Assembly (NCBI GenBank): GCA_017478205.1
Contig: JAFVDZ010000081.1
Location: 1 to 62,956 of the forward strand
DNA from: Spirochaetales bacterium
GTDB taxonomy: Bacteria > Spirochaetota > Spirochaetia > Sphaerochaetales > Sphaerochaetaceae
Direction: 5' to 3'
DNA length: 62,956 nucleotides
The notes under the pieces are model-generated. The model was not told the origin of the DNA. It did not search any database and saw only the letters and a list, made by a program, of their open reading frames with translations. Numbering within the stretch: position 1 is the first letter of the stretch; every line of letters begins with the position of its first letter. This document shows, one piece after another, positions 1 to 6,416 of the stretch. The position numbers and the translations under genes are program-made.

Positions 1-52
1 AACTGAAGAACTGAGGTAGCAGTAGATACCAGACTAAAGAAACTGAAGTTTG

Positions 53-134
53 GGCGATTTCTTCTTGCTGGTTATTTTATCCTGCTCCCATCTGGCGATT
101 TTATCCTGCTGTTTTTGGGTTATTTTCGCCCGCT
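53..134. repeat. Four 17-bp direct repeats, probable IS21-like end
   Basis: Four copies of a 17-bp unit, consensus GGYKATTTTATCCTGCT, lie at 53-69, 70-86, 94-110 and 118-134; the second and third differ at two positions only, the outer ones are more diverged. Starts are 17, 24 and 24 bp apart. Arrays of short direct repeats just inside the tip of the element are characteristic of IS21-family insertion sequences, where they bind the transposase. No transposase frame is visible in the window, so this is either the edge of an element lying to the left or a remnant. A non-IS role (regulator-binding array) is not excluded. Confidence 0.45.
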
Positions 135-244
135 GCTAATACTCCAAAAGGGTGGAGGGATAAATCAATTATTGAATTAAATATATTGTGCCAACCAGAT
201 TAGCTGAAAGGTCCTTTTTGTATGTTTTGATAATTACTTAATGC
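135..244. other. Non-coding gap
   Basis: AT-rich stretch between the repeat cluster and the terminator of the 122-aa gene. No open frame with a ribosome binding site, no RNA gene and no convincing promoter was seen. Confidence 0.5.
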
Positions 245-278
245 AAAAAAATCGACTCGCAAAAATATACGAGTCGAT
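245..278 (-). terminator. Rho-independent terminator of the 122-aa gene
   Basis: On the minus strand a perfect 9-bp stem (251-259 with 270-278, ATCGACTCG/CGAGTCGAT) is followed directly by six T residues (250-245). It lies 23 bp beyond the stop codon of the small gene at 302-670. Confidence 0.85.
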
Positions 279-301
279 TATACAAGGAAGAAAAAAAAGA
301 A

Positions 302-670
302 TTACTTATCAATACCTGTTGGTAAGTTACTATAATCTCTAGCAAACTTTTCGTCAGTCCCCCAGGTTTTATCATATGAATTATACCAAGCGTATCTATG
401 CTCTAATATTTCTGATTGATTAGCAACAGAATGAATATACCAAGTCGCATCATAATCAGTATCAGTTTGAACATTGAAGAAGTTAGTATCATTAAAATTT
501 TTAATACCATTTATATCTCCACCATCATCTTTAAACTGAGAAAATTCTGAATATGAGGTAACATAAACATAACTAGTATTCAAATCATTTCCAGCACCAC
601 TAGTAGCAATTACATCTTTTTCATTGAATCTTACGACTTCAACCTTTAACTCGAAATTATTATTAGCCAT
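302..670 (-). CDS. Unknown 122-aa protein with gut-type DVIATSG motif
   Basis: Small acidic soluble protein, no signal peptide or membrane segment. Near the N-terminus it carries EVVRFNEKDVIATSG (residues about 11-25). From memory, a similar pattern (EVVxFxxxDVIxTS) opens many small uncharacterised proteins of gut Firmicutes; this is recall, not a search result. The rest is rich in Asn, Asp, Tyr and Trp and was not recognised. The gene is a complete single-gene transcription unit: promoter TTGACT-16-TATAAT at 777-750, a leader of about 70 nt, a GGAGG ribosome binding site 8 bp before the ATG, and a strong terminator right after the stop. Function unknown. The frame and expression signals are convincing; transfer from another gut phylum is possible but unproved. 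Confidence 0.8.
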   Translation of the reverse strand: MANNNFELKVEVVRFNEKDVIATSGAGNDLNTSYVYVTSYSEFSQFKDDGGDINGIKNFNDTNFFNVQTDTDYDATWYIHSVANQSEILEHRYAWYNSYDKTWGTDEKFARDYSNLPTGIDK

Positions 671-699
671 ATAAAACCTCCGAACTTGGCTATAAGATA

Positions 700-742
700 G
701 ATAGTGCTATTTGTGTATTATCGAAGGAGAACCAACACTATC
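700..742. repeat. 7-bp inverted repeat at predicted mRNA 5' end
   Basis: GATAGTG (700-706) and CACTATC (736-742) are perfect complements 29 bp apart. With the promoter at 777-750 the transcript would begin at about 743, so the repeat would form a stem at the very 5' end of the mRNA of the 122-aa gene. It could stabilise the transcript or be an operator. Confidence 0.4.
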
Positions 743-749
743 AGTATGA

Positions 750-777
750 ATTATAACACTTCGAGGAGGGCAGTCAA
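750..777 (-). promoter_or_regulatory. Sigma70-type promoter of the 122-aa gene
   Basis: Minus strand: -35 TTGACT (777-772), 16-bp spacer, -10 TATAAT (755-750). This is among the best sigma70 matches in the window and is placed to drive only the small gene at 302-670. Confidence 0.7.
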
Positions 778-793
778 TGATTGTTTATATTAC

Positions 794-831
794 AAAAAAA
801 ATACCAGCAAACTTTTATAGAATGCTGGTAT
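794..831 (-). terminator. Rho-independent terminator of the ABC operon
   Basis: Minus strand: perfect 9-bp stem ATACCAGCA (831-823 with 809-801), 13-nt loop, then seven T residues (800-794). It closes the operon that runs from 6416 to 855. Confidence 0.85.
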
Positions 832-854
832 CAAATTAAGCAAATAATGATGAT

Positions 855-1307
855 TTACATCATTGCAGATAGATCATCGGTTACGATTGGCTCTTCTGCA
901 CTTTGATCTGCCTGAACTGCCATAGACTTGAATACTTCAAGCCATTCACTCTGTGGAGCATCTAGATTCATAGCAAGCTTAGGAAGTGAAATGATATACA
1001 TGTCATTCTTTGCTGGAACTTTGAACTTGATAACCTTATCAATTTCATTCCAGTTGGAATCTGTATACTTCACATGAAGCTTATGACTTTGGCCTGTGAC
1101 GACGAACTGATCTCTATCACGAGGGTAGAGCTCCAGAGAATCTTGCTTGTCAATTGAGACCTCAATTGATTTCAATGCAGGAGCAACACCTTCAACAGTG
1201 CGGTTATCAACTAGGATTGTGTGCTGTCTTCCGATGAAATACATCGAGAAGGCAAGGAGAATGACAGCAACACATGTAACAATTCTTACAATAAGACGTC
1301 TGTTCAT
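855..1307 (-). CDS. Membrane-anchored accessory protein of ABC cassette (DUF6672-like)
   Basis: 150-aa protein with one N-terminal membrane segment (about residues 7-25, preceded by Arg-Arg) and a soluble extracytoplasmic domain of about 120 residues. No lipobox. It is the last gene of the ABC importer operon; its ATG overlaps the stop of the permease gene by one base, so translation is coupled. From memory it resembles the DUF6672 proteins found behind sugar-type ABC genes in spirochaetes; that label is tentative. It may help the permeases or hold the binding protein at the membrane, but this rests on context alone. Confidence 0.65.
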   Translation of the reverse strand: MNRRLIVRIVTCVAVILLAFSMYFIGRQHTILVDNRTVEGVAPALKSIEVSIDKQDSLELYPRDRDQFVVTGQSHKLHVKYTDSNWNEIDKVIKFKVPAKNDMYIISLPKLAMNLDAPQSEWLEVFKSMAVQADQSAEEPIVTDDLSAMM

Positions 1308-2425
1308 TACTTATCCTCCTTCTGTTCAGCAGCAAGTTCATCACCCTCATATGAGAGCTCTCTCTTCTTTCTAACTTCATAGAGTACGAGAGAAACTGTA
1401 ATTACACCGTAACTGACGAATACACGGAAGTATTCACCAAGCTGTGCTTCACCGATAAGGTTCTTACCTGCCATAGGGGAGATAACGAACATAAGGTGGA
1501 AGAGAACAACTCCCAAGAACACGTTTCTGATATTTGCCTTGGCAACTGAAGCACCACCAACAAGGAGTGCAGCAATTGAGAACATACCAACCTGTGTATG
1601 GCTATTATATGTGTTGAGTGTACCAATGTTCTGAAGGTAGATGATCATACCATAGCCAGCAAATACTGTTGACATGATAATTGATATGATTCTTGTTCTC
1701 TCAACCTTGATACCAGATGCTCTAGCAACCTCCATATCCTGGCCAACTGCTCTCATGTCCTGACCAAGCTTGGTCTTTCTGAACCAAAGGATAAAGACAC
1801 AGAGAAGGGCGATGACGAGTAGGGTAGCAATAGGGATGTTGATACCTGCAATTCTAAGAGGAATAAGACCATCAAGTTGCTTTCTGATTCCAGTGAGGTT
1901 TACAGTGTTTCTGATACCATAGCCACGGGAAAGAACCAATGCACTATTTGCAATTGGAATGATGGAACCCATCATATAGAGAACTACAAGCTGATAGACA
2001 CCATTTACAAAAAAGCCAATGATGTAGCTTGTTACCATCTCTCTACCTTTTGCCATATTGAGAAGGTTTCCACACATCCAACCTAAGAAGATTGAAATAG
2101 GTGTGGATATGATTGCAGCAAGGATCATGCCAGGAATGCCGACAACACCGAGGTTACAGATGATGATAAGACCGATCTCGGCAGCCATTGCACCAAGAGT
2201 CATACCGAAATTAAGACCCATACCAGCCATGATTGGGATAAGAAGGCTGAGGATAAGGAACGCATTTCTTGATAGACGAACAAAGATTTCGTTGATCAGA
2301 TAGTTCATTGAGTATCCAGAAAGAGGGATACCAATTGCACATATGATAACAAATAGAATAGGTACAGTGTTGTTCTCGACAAAGCGCTTTAATCTCTCTG
2401 CGCGGGAAATATTTAAATTCTTCAT
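1307..2425 (-). CDS. ABC transporter permease (BPD_transp_2 family)
   Basis: 372-aa polytopic membrane protein of the RbsC/BPD_transp_2 type used by importers of sugars, nucleosides and related solutes. Hydrophobic segments run through the whole chain from residue 17 to about 355, ending in a charged Lys/Glu tail. The motif MGLNFGMTLGAMAAE (about 68-82) matches the Gly-rich region GLNFGLPLGIISG in the neighbouring permease, so the two are paralogues that probably form a heterodimer. The ATG overlaps the end of the upstream permease gene by four bases. Substrate unknown. Confidence 0.85.
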   Translation of the reverse strand: MKNLNISRAERLKRFVENNTVPILFVIICAIGIPLSGYSMNYLINEIFVRLSRNAFLILSLLIPIMAGMGLNFGMTLGAMAAEIGLIIICNLGVVGIPGMILAAIISTPISIFLGWMCGNLLNMAKGREMVTSYIIGFFVNGVYQLVVLYMMGSIIPIANSALVLSRGYGIRNTVNLTGIRKQLDGLIPLRIAGINIPIATLLVIALLCVFILWFRKTKLGQDMRAVGQDMEVARASGIKVERTRIISIIMSTVFAGYGMIIYLQNIGTLNTYNSHTQVGMFSIAALLVGGASVAKANIRNVFLGVVLFHLMFVISPMAGKNLIGEAQLGEYFRVFVSYGVITVSLVLYEVRKKRELSYEGDELAAEQKEDK

Positions 2426-3465
2426 CTTGCAACCTCCGACTTACGGGTCAGTGCGTAAAGAATCATACCGTTAGAGACGATGATACGTACGACCTCAGAA
2501 ATATCGGTATGAACGACAGAGTTCATTACCGATGGTGTCATTGTGAGGATGCCCTGGAAGAGGAAAGTACCTACGATGACATTTGTAATAGATGCTTTGT
2601 TGACACTAGCACCACCAATCAATATTGCACTGACTGCTGGAAGTGCCATGTAGAAAGGCCCCATATATAGCTGGATAAAGCCAAAGCTTTGTTCATAGAC
2701 GAGAATACCGACAGCACCAAGCCATGTGGACATGATTACAGAAAGTGTTCTGATTGCATCTACATTGATACCACTTGCCTTTGCAAAGATAGGGTTGGAA
2801 CCAACTGCAGTCATTGCTGTACCAGTCTTTGTGTGAAGGAAAGCCCACATCAAGAAGGCAAGAAGAGCAAAGAACAGGAACATACCAGTTGGAATTACAA
2901 TACCACCAAACTTCAAGGACAATAAGTCATTGAGAACATGGAGATAATAACCCTCAGTACTGATTGTTGTTCTGAGACCACGACCTGCATAACCCCAAAC
3001 CATTGTTGGGTTACGATATGGAAGCAATAGCCACATCATACACATGAATGCAACAGATGAAAAACCTACATAGGTTGCAATCATCATCTCTCCACCCTTT
3101 ACCTTATTGAGCAATTTGCCGTATCCATAGCCAGCAAGAAGGGCAAAAGGAGTTGAGAATACGATGGCCATCAAGAAGCTGACCATTCCAGAAAAGCCCA
3201 TTTCGATAGAAAGGGTAGCACCCAAAAGACCTGAAATGATGCCAAGAGGAAGACCGAAGTTGAGGCCACATCCACTGTGGATCATTGGGACCATTGCAAG
3301 AACCATGACACAGTTCATGCCGAAACGGTTCATAACATTTGTAAGGCTTATATCAAGCTTGACTCCAACAAAAGGAGCGATTACAAACAGTGCAAAAAGG
3401 AAGAGTCCAATGATAATTCTAGGAAGTCCTGCCTTGTGCACGAAATCAATTATCTTATTCATCAT
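2422..3465 (-). CDS. ABC transporter permease (BPD_transp_2 family)
   Basis: 347-aa polytopic permease, paralogue of the next gene in the operon and partner of the RbsA-like ATPase. It shares the NRFGMNCVMVLAMVPMIHSG segment and the GLNFGLPLGI motif typical of this permease family, and a conserved stretch near residue 280 (ILIGGASVNKA) with a near-identical counterpart in its partner. Start and stop overlap the flanking genes by four bases each, so the three transport genes are translationally coupled. It forms part of the inner-membrane channel; substrate unknown. Confidence 0.85.
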   Translation of the reverse strand: MMNKIIDFVHKAGLPRIIIGLFLFALFVIAPFVGVKLDISLTNVMNRFGMNCVMVLAMVPMIHSGCGLNFGLPLGIISGLLGATLSIEMGFSGMVSFLMAIVFSTPFALLAGYGYGKLLNKVKGGEMMIATYVGFSSVAFMCMMWLLLPYRNPTMVWGYAGRGLRTTISTEGYYLHVLNDLLSLKFGGIVIPTGMFLFFALLAFLMWAFLHTKTGTAMTAVGSNPIFAKASGINVDAIRTLSVIMSTWLGAVGILVYEQSFGFIQLYMGPFYMALPAVSAILIGGASVNKASITNVIVGTFLFQGILTMTPSVMNSVVHTDISEVVRIIVSNGMILYALTRKSEVAR

Positions 3466-5072
3466 TTATCACTTCCTTTTCCTACCATGAGGAGACCAAA
3501 GTCAGAGCTTGGTGAAGAAGCAGGAAGGATACCGTGAACCTTACCATCTGTGATGATGGCAATACGGTCACAGATACTTCTGAGCTCTTCAAGCTCACTT
3601 GAGATCATGACGATAGTAACTCCATTCTCCTGGTTATACTTTCTAAGTGTATTCAATACGAGCTGCTTTGCACCGATATCGATACCTCTAGTTGGCTCAG
3701 AGACAAAAAGGAGTTTAGGATTCATTGCAAATGCTTTAGCAAGACAGATCTTCTGCTGGTTACCACCAGAAAGCTCCTTAGCATGTTGCTTTGATGAAGT
3801 ACAGCGGATTTCAAGATCCTTGATATATTTAGCTGTGACTTCTTCAATAGCCTCCTGGTCTCTCCAGGTGATAGGGCCAAACTTCTTCAGAAAGTCATCT
3901 CTTACCTGCATAGCACCAAAGGAAACGTTCCATTCAAGAGATTCATCAAGGAGAAGTCCAACGCCTCTTCTATCTTCACTTACGAAAGCAAGTCCGCTGT
4001 CAAGAAGGAAACGAGGGGAGTTAAGCTTGAGTGGCTGTCCCTGGAATGTAACTTCACCACCAGCAGGGTAGAGACCCATAACACCATTAGGGATACCAAG
4101 CTTACCCTGACCTGCAAGACCACCGATACCCAAGATTTCACCCTTGTGGACATCAATGTTGACATCACGAACAACTTCACCAGGCATATTTACCCAGAGG
4201 TGCTTGATAGAGAGATCAACAGGAGCCTTGTCATAGTCAAAAGCTCTCTTGGTGTTTTCCTTTACAGCGACTTCACGACCAACCATCCAGTTTGCAATTG
4301 AGTTGATTTCAACATTCTTATTTTCAACCTGCTGAATGATCTTGCCATCTCTCATGACCATGATGGAATCACAGACATCGATGATCTCCTGAAGTCTGTG
4401 AGAAATGAAGATGATTGCAACACCTTCACTTGAAAGCTTCTTCATGGCTGTAAGCAGATTCTCAGCTTCTTTTTCAGAGAGAACAGCTGTAGGCTCATCA
4501 AGAACAAGAAGTCTTATCTTCTTGGCATTTTCACCGCTGTCCTTGGAAAGCTCACGAGCAATTTCAGTAAACTGCTTGTGACCAACAGGCATCTGATTAA
4601 CTGGCATATCTGATTCAAGAGGTACACCAAGACGATTGATTGCATTCTTACTGATTTCATCCATCTTGGCTCTGTCAAGAACATCCATTCGATCACCGAA
4701 AAGGTCACTGAACAGGCTTCTCTTCTGTGGTTCGCGATTGAGAACAATATTTTCTGTAGCTGTAAAATCAGGTATCAAAGAGAATTCCTGATGTACCATA
4801 CCGATACCTTGATTCAATGCATCAAGAGATGATTCAAAGTTCACAACTTGACCATCTATGAGCATCTCTCCTTCATAACCACCCGTGTTCTTGATGGAAT
4901 CCATGGCAAACAGAATGTTCATCAATGTTGATTTACCTGCACCATTTTCACCAACAAGACCCAAAATTTCTCCTTCATGAAGAATGAAATTGACATCATG
5001 AAGAACCTGGTTACCAAAGAAGTTCTTTCTGATATGTCTCATCTCCAATAAAGGTGTCTTTTGTTCGTTCAT
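3462..5072 (-). CDS. Sugar-type ABC transporter ATP-binding protein (RbsA-like)
   Basis: 536-aa protein with two tandem ABC ATPase domains, as in RbsA/MglA. Domain 1 has Walker A GENGAGKST (about 41-49) and Walker B LLVLDEPTA; its signature is degenerate (VGHKQFTEIA in place of LSGGQ). Domain 2 has a weak Walker A (GGLAGQGK), a clean LSGGNQQK signature and Walker B LLFVSEPTRGIDIG. One good and one degenerate signature is usual for this subfamily. It powers import through the two permeases encoded just downstream, using the secreted DUF3798-type protein encoded upstream. Confidence 0.92.
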   Translation of the reverse strand: MNEQKTPLLEMRHIRKNFFGNQVLHDVNFILHEGEILGLVGENGAGKSTLMNILFAMDSIKNTGGYEGEMLIDGQVVNFESSLDALNQGIGMVHQEFSLIPDFTATENIVLNREPQKRSLFSDLFGDRMDVLDRAKMDEISKNAINRLGVPLESDMPVNQMPVGHKQFTEIARELSKDSGENAKKIRLLVLDEPTAVLSEKEAENLLTAMKKLSSEGVAIIFISHRLQEIIDVCDSIMVMRDGKIIQQVENKNVEINSIANWMVGREVAVKENTKRAFDYDKAPVDLSIKHLWVNMPGEVVRDVNIDVHKGEILGIGGLAGQGKLGIPNGVMGLYPAGGEVTFQGQPLKLNSPRFLLDSGLAFVSEDRRGVGLLLDESLEWNVSFGAMQVRDDFLKKFGPITWRDQEAIEEVTAKYIKDLEIRCTSSKQHAKELSGGNQQKICLAKAFAMNPKLLFVSEPTRGIDIGAKQLVLNTLRKYNQENGVTIVMISSELEELRSICDRIAIITDGKVHGILPASSPSSDFGLLMVGKGSDK

Positions 5073-5152
5073 ATCTTATATTTCCTCGATAATGTGGAAT
5101 TGTTGCTTTTGCTTTTCATTGATAAAAACAAAGGCAACAAGCCCAACAAACT

Positions 5153-5180
5153 AAAAGGGGAGAAGAGATCCTCTCCCCTT
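5153..5180 (-). terminator. Intercistronic hairpin after binding-protein gene
   Basis: Minus strand stem of 9 bp (5180-5172 with 5163-5155, AAGGGGAGA/TCTCCCCTT) followed by only four T residues. It sits between the binding-protein gene and the ATPase gene. A leaky terminator or 3' stabilising hairpin here would keep the binding protein in excess over the membrane parts. A second small stem (5100-5106 with 5134-5140) lies just beyond. Confidence 0.6.
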
Positions 5181-5198
5181 AGTCCGTATAGGAAAGAT

Positions 5199-6416
5199 TT
5201 ACTTCATTGTGAAGAACTTCTCTGGAACCTCAACAGAAGTAGCGTTCATGTAGCCCTTGCCCATGATATAGGTATCCTGATAGATAAGAACGTGATTCTT
5301 AGCACGTACGCCAGTACCAATATCAGTATAGAGGGAACCATTCCACTTAGCACCTGGTGTGAACTTACCATATGCCTTCATGATATCGCTCATCTTCATA
5401 AGTTCACTATTGCCCTTGAGGACGTTGATAGCGTGCTCGCCAAGACCAGCTGTTGTGGTATAGCCATAGGAGTAAGCCCATGTACCGAAGCGGCCAGCGC
5501 CACCCTTTTCGTTGATGGAACCTTCGACCTTAGCAAGAATTGCTGGGAAGTTACCTGCCTCAGCAGAGAGGTCGATACCAAGAGCTCCAGGATATCCCAT
5601 AAGTGGGGAAGGAAGGTCTGCTTCGATGAAGTAGCCACCGTAAGCAAGGAGCTGCTTGAGGAGAGGCTCTGTATGAGCATCGTTTGTACAGAAGAATGCT
5701 GTTTCCTTGCCGTACTTGTTGACCCAAGCTGGAACATTCTCGAGGATGTACTGCTGAGCACCTGCAACACCTACATCAGATGTTGGATCTGGAGCAGTCT
5801 CCATGTAGAAGTTCATGCCAAGTTCCTTACATGTTGCTCTCATGATTGCAACACGGCGGCTCATGGATTCATATGAGAGGTGGCGTGGGAAGGAGATGTG
5901 GACAAAGTTCTTTACACCAAGTTCGTGAGCGGTGTGAATGATAAGATATCCACGAGCAACGAAGTCGTTCTGAACAACGAGGTCAGAAGAAGACTCGATT
6001 ACTGCTGGGTCTTCGTGAGCTTCACCTGCGATACAGAGGATATCGCTTCTCTTTTCCTTGACTCTGCGGAAAGCTTCAGTTGTGCCAGGAACAGCCTGGT
6101 TGACAATGATAGCCTTCATGAGAGGGTCATCAGCAAGACCTGCGATAACACTGATTGTAGTCTCTGCCTCTTCCATGAAATTGTCAGGGTAGGTAACGTG
6201 CTGGATCATACCACCGTTCTGAACAGAACCATACTCTGCAATGAGAGCTTCTGCACCACGGAGATCATCTTCAGACTGAGAAACAGTACCAGTAACGATA
6301 CCGATGTGGAAATTAGTTGCTGCAGCAGCTGGCTTAGCTTCTTCCTTTGCACCACCTGCGAAAAGGGCAGATGCAATGAAGAACAAGCACATAAGAACAA
6401 CAAGAGTCTTCTTCAT
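5199..6416 (-). CDS. DUF3798-family periplasmic substrate-binding protein
   Basis: 405-aa secreted protein. Signal peptide of about 20 residues (MKKTL, hydrophobic core, SALFA cleavage site) then GGAKEEAKP; there is no lipobox cysteine at the cleavage site. The mature part has the two-lobed periplasmic-binding-protein look (FHIGIVTGTVSQSEDD at its start) and fits my recollection of the DUF3798 family. It is the first gene of the ABC operon, with an AAGGAG ribosome binding site (6430-6425) and a promoter at 6519-6491. Ligand not known; the RbsA-type partners suggest a small sugar-like, nucleoside or related solute. Confidence 0.85.
   Translation of the reverse strand: MKKTLVVLMCLFFIASALFAGGAKEEAKPAAAATNFHIGIVTGTVSQSEDDLRGAEALIAEYGSVQNGGMIQHVTYPDNFMEEAETTISVIAGLADDPLMKAIIVNQAVPGTTEAFRRVKEKRSDILCIAGEAHEDPAVIESSSDLVVQNDFVARGYLIIHTAHELGVKNFVHISFPRHLSYESMSRRVAIMRATCKELGMNFYMETAPDPTSDVGVAGAQQYILENVPAWVNKYGKETAFFCTNDAHTEPLLKQLLAYGGYFIEADLPSPLMGYPGALGIDLSAEAGNFPAILAKVEGSINEKGGAGRFGTWAYSYGYTTTAGLGEHAINVLKGNSELMKMSDIMKAYGKFTPGAKWNGSLYTDIGTGVRAKNHVLIYQDTYIMGKGYMNATSVEVPEKFFTMK

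Follow-up and report, generated by a model that had tools for sequence, protein, structure and literature searches.

Linear polyphosphorylated peptides (LPPs) have been described in Paenibacillus alginolyticus, where they are associated with the LppA/K/B/S/D/N set (Popov et al., 2026; PMC13381572). Their precursors carry leaders with the consensus YxxPxVLxHQxIxFETxxS, in which the YxxP motif is essential for RRE binding; multiple phosphates are placed on Ser3 of the core, and the leader is cut with the assistance of the RRE. The gene families considered below are the same ones for which phosphorylation and cleavage of precursors were established experimentally in that work, export being presumed from the exporter gene (PMC13381572). 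The authors regard the family as restricted to Bacillota, and the main text of their paper makes no mention of Clostridia, Ruminococcus, spirochaetes or acyltransferases.

Here, we analysed a contig of 62,956 bp (C14, hereafter the window) from the draft genome of a Spirochaetales bacterium (1.9 Mb, 98 contigs, 97.5% complete). The presence of Omp85/POTRA, TamB-like and two LptF/LptG genes within the window indicates that the host is a diderm, and its lipoproteins and overall gene content may be read as those of a spirochaete living in the gut. A gene near the start of the window, encoding a protein of 122 aa, is probably the orphan precursor of an LPP-type RiPP and would be matured in trans by enzymes encoded on another contig of the same assembly (C32).

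Expression signals and setting of the 122-aa gene

The sequence-only reading of the window had singled out a 122-aa ORF with a near-consensus promoter, a good ribosome binding site and a strong terminator, and all of these elements are present (Table 1). A promoter of this quality is expected by chance with a probability of about 0.011 over a single-strand stretch of 185 bp with the local composition, and only seven equally good sites occur across both strands of the whole window. The stem that had also been proposed at the 5' end of the mRNA does exist (10 pairs, 742-733 with 709-700, loop of 23 nt), but shuffled versions of the region fold just as well (z -0.45; 61 of 200 shuffles equally good), and the stem is thus evidence of nothing. 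Since the preceding DUF6672 gene (855-1307, reverse strand) stops 185 bp ahead of the 122-aa gene and is followed by a terminator-like hairpin, read from the sequence at approximately 801-831, the 122-aa gene is, judged from its layout, a transcription unit of its own. The DUF6672 gene, which 13 of the 16 genomes in the host genus carry, belongs to a conserved operon (window 855-6416) that also encodes two sugar/nucleoside-type permeases, a double ATPase and a DUF3798 protein.

Table 1. Coordinates of features in the window and on contig C32 of the same assembly
Feature	Location	Strand	Basis or remark
Putative orphan LPP-like precursor gene, 122 aa, ATG start	window 302..670	-	ORF; profile of five other long-form precursors
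Leader, codons 1-25, VRFxxxDVIATSG signature	window 596..670	-	alignment of six long-form precursors
Tail (predicted exported part) and stop codon; hypervariable, without confident fold	window 302..595	-	core similarity test; model mean pLDDT 42
Promoter TTGACT-16-TATAAT, 11 of 12 consensus matches, TG ahead of -10	window 750..777	-	sequence
Ribosome binding site GGAGG, 6 nt 5' of ATG	window 677..681	-	sequence
Intrinsic terminator: stem of 12 pairs, 5 GC, and T run	window 250..279	-	sequence
End of repeat common to starts of C3, C32 and C60	window 1..141		sequence comparison
Precursor 2	C32 243-599		heads operon
MsbA-like exporter	C32 669-2555		best model MsbA_lipidA, E 4e-70
Acyl_transf_3 membrane acyltransferase	C32 2543-3643		
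Discrete PqqD-like RRE	C32 3670-3936		PF05402, E 2e-10, above Pfam cut-off; nearest NCBIfam model lasso_PqqD_Bac
SpI-like (SipW/archaeal-type) signal peptidase	C32 3949-4419		TIGR02228, E 4e-4, below the model's cut-off
HprK-like kinase	C32 4416-5159		no Pfam match itself; homologous to Kandleria protein
AAA_21 ATPase	C32, after HprK-like gene		runs off contig end

The protein, whose N-terminus reads EVVRFNEKDVIATSG, gave no match in Pfam or NCBIfam, and the best E values were 0.18 in PHROGs and 9.3 among PDB sequences. A tblastn search of phages and plasmids returned a single marginal match (Bacillus phage G, E 0.5), and whole-protein searches of the phylum, the family and two collections yielded no convincing homologue, the weak matches (L002-L011) looking like chance. 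In window positions 1-1400, Rfam gave nothing beyond sub-threshold noise. The AlphaFold model of the precursor (6 rows) was unusable at the mean pLDDT given in Table 1. Ordinary secretion by a signal peptide was rejected on inspection, the N-terminus containing no hydrophobic stretch.

The window aligns at 80% DNA identity to its nearest same-genus genome (G298) down to window position 862, just short of the 122-aa gene, and G298 carries a different gene at that place. Moreover, the GC content of the gene is 30.4% as compared to 40.8% for the window, and the pattern F...DVIxTSG was found in none of the other 138 genomes of the host family. This loss of synteny, the low GC content and the absence of the pattern from the family suggest that the gene was probably acquired recently, which fits the earlier proposal that it came from gut neighbours.

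The leader signature and the genes around it

A degenerate DNA pattern for F[DNE]x[EK]DVIxTSG was scanned over the GTDB genome collection (about 85,000 genomes), returning at least 118 stretches. Among the matches listed, nearly all were from rumen or gut Clostridia; eight were chance occurrences in unrelated reading frames or proteins, and the other 110 are referred to as signature loci. At a typical signature locus the motif begins 10-18 residues past a start codon preceded by a ribosome binding site, and the typical leader among the matches listed has the form MKxxYxxPxMEIxxF[DE]xEDVI[T/A/R]TS. These genes share a leader of about 25 residues, followed by variable tails that range from a few residues to about 100. 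Positions that the scan pattern fixed say nothing about conservation; the Ser following the Thr, where the pattern permitted other residues, is almost invariant, and in a looser local scan the Gly is variable, with N, S, F, V, D and A occurring. Among the matches listed, the scan thus bears out the suggestion that the DVIATSG N-terminus marks small proteins of gut Firmicutes that form a widespread but unnamed group, and a literature search for the motif itself retrieved no paper. Cricetibacter osteomyelitidis (L122) has a tandem row of six precursors that share the leader and differ in their tails, with kinase, RRE and NTP_transf_5 genes nearby. Two loci with EDVITTSG precursors carry other labels, Synergistaceae for L118 and Alistipes for L092, the latter having an HprK-like gene; they represent either further transfers or mislabelled metagenome contigs.

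Neighbouring genes were classified by clustering and profile searches in partial windows of at most 8 kb, some of the profile seeds coming from these same loci. Among the 110 listed signature loci, a PqqD-like RRE was found at 34, an HprK-like kinase at 22, an SpI-like peptidase at 19 and NTP_transf_5 at 17; at least one of these four maturation genes was present at 39 loci and at least two at 29, as compared to none of the eight chance-match loci. The Kandleria genes run in the order precursor, exporter, Acyl_transf_3, PqqD, HprK-like, SpI-like and NTP_transf_5. Of the neighbours anticipated from the sequence alone, peptidases and exporters were recovered, but the 25 families listed when 66 neighbour proteins were surveyed include no radical SAM family. 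An asparagine-synthetase-like cyclase is likewise absent from these listed families. In addition, 53 of 86 evaluable EDVIxTS precursors (L013-L130) begin no more than about 120 nt (mostly 3-30 nt) beyond an ORF of 200 aa or more on the same strand, an arrangement that random positions give in 5.5% of cases. A signal-peptide-like N-terminus is present in 41 of those 53 upstream ORFs, and dockerin and BspA-type LRR proteins are among such neighbours. From this arrangement, the Clostridial EDVIxTS peptides look co-translated with large secreted proteins.

Six signature genes have long tails: the window gene, one on contig C32 of the same genome, and those of Kandleria vitulina (L038), Clostridiales NK3B98 (L061 and L149) and a Lachnospira MAG (L068). 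The six share F15, D19, V20, I21, T23 and S24 without exception. A profile built from the other five recognised the window gene with an E value of 6.6e-12, a score that none of 2000 shuffles reached. When the leader was removed, the window tail showed no significant similarity to the other long-form tails, so that it is the leader that carries the homology, as is the case for RiPP precursors. The long-form precursors of Kandleria, NK3B98 and Lachnospira lie inside or beside the same type of maturation operon, and NK3B98, like the host, has one precursor in the operon and one orphan on another contig. The long form was found in none of the other 396 genomes drawn from the family of the Lachnospira locus, and it is therefore rare in that family. 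Over the host genome, a profile search detected exactly two precursors, the window gene and precursor 2 of C32. The gene is thus alone locally, as had been noted, but it has a paralogue and maturation genes elsewhere in the genome.

The window leader lacks the YxxP/MxxP motif, having N5 and L8 instead, whereas the other five long-form leaders have M in place of the Y and keep the P (MxxP). Since YxxP is essential for RRE binding in the LPP study, the window product may be only a weak RRE substrate, or the gene may be decaying, even though it has kept its expression signals. The strongest rival explanation follows from this: a decaying copy or decoy of LPP-like descent would still be expressed and would no longer be bound by the RRE, processed or exported. 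The substituted binding motif and the position of the gene apart from the operon, next to a repeat end, agree with such decay, but promoter, ribosome binding site, ORF and terminator are all preserved, and the DVIATS part of the leader is unchanged letter for letter. We consider this explanation unlikely, while granting it appreciable weight, and prefer to regard the gene as a probable orphan precursor of the LPP type.

A probable maturation operon elsewhere in the genome

Contig C32 carries an operon headed by precursor 2 (Table 1). The Ser, His and Asp of its peptidase are invariant in nine homologues. The Kandleria homologue of its kinase matches HPr_kinase_C (E 0.003), and the kinase P-loop and an NGDKPL motif are conserved; the single-sequence AlphaFold model of the kinase (mean pLDDT 36.5) was unusable. 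The only PqqD gene above the Pfam cut-off in the host genome is the one on C32. NTP_transf_5, which is present in Kandleria and in a genome of the same family (G357), has no match above the cut-off in the host genome (best E 0.13), and C32 breaks off at its end.

It could be argued that the window gene encodes a stand-alone small protein, functionally unrelated to these enzymes, and that its motif is fortuitous or an ancient remnant. There is indeed no maturation gene near it in the window, and its tail is dissimilar to the others, but the leader homology lies far beyond that of shuffled sequences and the same genome contains both the operon and a paralogue, which makes this explanation improbable.

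Contigs C14, C32, C3 and C60 start with the same 141 bp, ending ...GCTGCTAATA, and diverge within a base or two beyond. A weaker copy of the repeat end (82% over 49 bp) occurs in the same-genus genome G299, and comparison of positions 1-141 with plasmids gave no match. The 141 bp are probably the end of a mobile element, a transposase not being among the genes recognised. As read from these shared ends, the assembly is broken at a multi-copy repeat carrying the 141 bp; if the element has long inverted ends, C14 and C32 could even be linked by it, with both precursors in tandem.

Another scenario would be that C32 is a contaminant and that the host possesses the window gene without the machinery. 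The assembly is a draft of 98 contigs, and the kinase was found in just one other of 139 family genomes and in none of the other 392 genomes of the phylum draw. Against this, the first 141 bp of C32 are exactly those of C14, C3 and C60, C14 itself aligns to a same-genus genome as described above, the GC content of C32 (40.1%) equals that of the window, and the core set is present in the same family. In G357 (contig C24, L144, 9967-14471), kinase, RRE, SpI-like peptidase, exporter and NTP_transf_5 genes lie in a row, and two short YxxP precursors, MKEYVKPEVSITEFDKDDIVLYV... and MKKYVKPEISVTEFEEDDIVLTV..., are encoded near that row on the other strand. The common repeat, the equal GC content and the complete operon in G357 speak for assigning C32 to the host, and contamination is improbable.

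Proposed maturation and relation to known systems

The interpretation of the window gene as an orphan LPP-type precursor draws on the homology of its leader, on the C32 operon with its conserved content and catalytic residues in the same assembly, on the occurrence of maturation genes at signature loci and at none of the chance loci, and on the operon-plus-orphan parallel in NK3B98. Counted against it are the missing YxxP/MxxP motif, the different leader consensus, the lack of NTP_transf_5 above the cut-off and a tail without recognisable similarity to the others.

From gene content we infer processing, acylation, export and trans maturation of the window product. The first 21 residues or so would serve as the leader held by the PqqD-like RRE, the HprK-like kinase would phosphorylate the invariant S24, the SipW-like signal peptidase would remove the leader near I21/A22, and the MsbA-type ABC pump would export the tail of about 100 residues, the C32 enzymes acting in trans. 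By analogy of spacing (FET|xxS in LPPs, DVI|xTS here), cleavage is predicted after I21 and phosphate on S24; an alternative cut would be V20-I21-A22|T23. The membrane acyltransferase of the operon may add an acyl group; such genes accompany the long form (Kandleria, NK3B98, Lachnospira and C32) and suggest that a further acyl modification may take place.

More tentatively, a large, unnamed EDVIxTS branch of LPP-like peptides may run through gut Clostridia and have moved into diderm bacteria of the gut, one operon serving scattered precursors and most Clostridial precursors being co-translated with large secreted proteins. If so, the peptides would be part of a surface-protein or extracellular-matrix programme rather than free antibiotics. 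On the orphan-precursor reading itself, common unexplained small proteins of gut microbes would be tied to a maturation pathway whose chemistry has recently been solved, and the leader signature would allow such precursors to be found genome-wide. The LPP-like pathway would extend past the phylum thought to be its limit, and the trans arrangement, together with the Clostridial coupling to secreted-protein genes, would make the purpose of LPPs directly testable.

Paeninodin-type phosphorylated lasso peptides resemble the present system in having an RRE of the same family, an HprK-like kinase and an ABC exporter. A lasso precursor can nevertheless be dismissed almost entirely, for although YxxP-type leaders and NTP_transf_5 also occur in paeninodin-type clusters along with the RRE and kinase, neither a macrolactam cyclase nor a B2-type peptidase is present in the C32, Kandleria and G357 operons or among the 25 listed neighbour families, an SpI-like peptidase is found instead, the tail is about 100 aa long, and the core from G25 (GAGNDLNTS) has no acidic residue at ring positions 7-9. 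The short EDVITTSG peptides of gut Clostridia, unnamed and found here, have the leader of the window gene, placed equally far from the start codon, and lie, like the long form, near the same maturation gene families. They differ in their tails of about 5-35 aa, in usually lying directly 3' of a gene for a large secreted protein and in that many keep YxxP.

The closest likeness is to LPPs, in which a conserved N-terminal leader is likewise followed by a variable tail in a precursor of 35-200 aa, and a discrete PqqD-like RRE, an HprK-like kinase, a SipW-like signal peptidase and an MsbA-like exporter are likewise encoded in an operon without a cyclase. In contrast to LPPs, the host-type leader is MxxPx(5)RFxxEDVIATS, degenerate in the window gene, rather than YxxPxVLxHQxIxFETxxS; the operon includes Acyl_transf_3, and NTP_transf_5 was not found in the host genome; and the host is a diderm in which operon and window gene lie apart. 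Strict membership of the LPP family is not claimed, since neither the published leader motif nor the NTP transferase was found when looked for, and the system is proposed to work like that of LPPs. As far as gene content can tell, LPP-like systems are present outside Bacillota, in the host genome and in G357.
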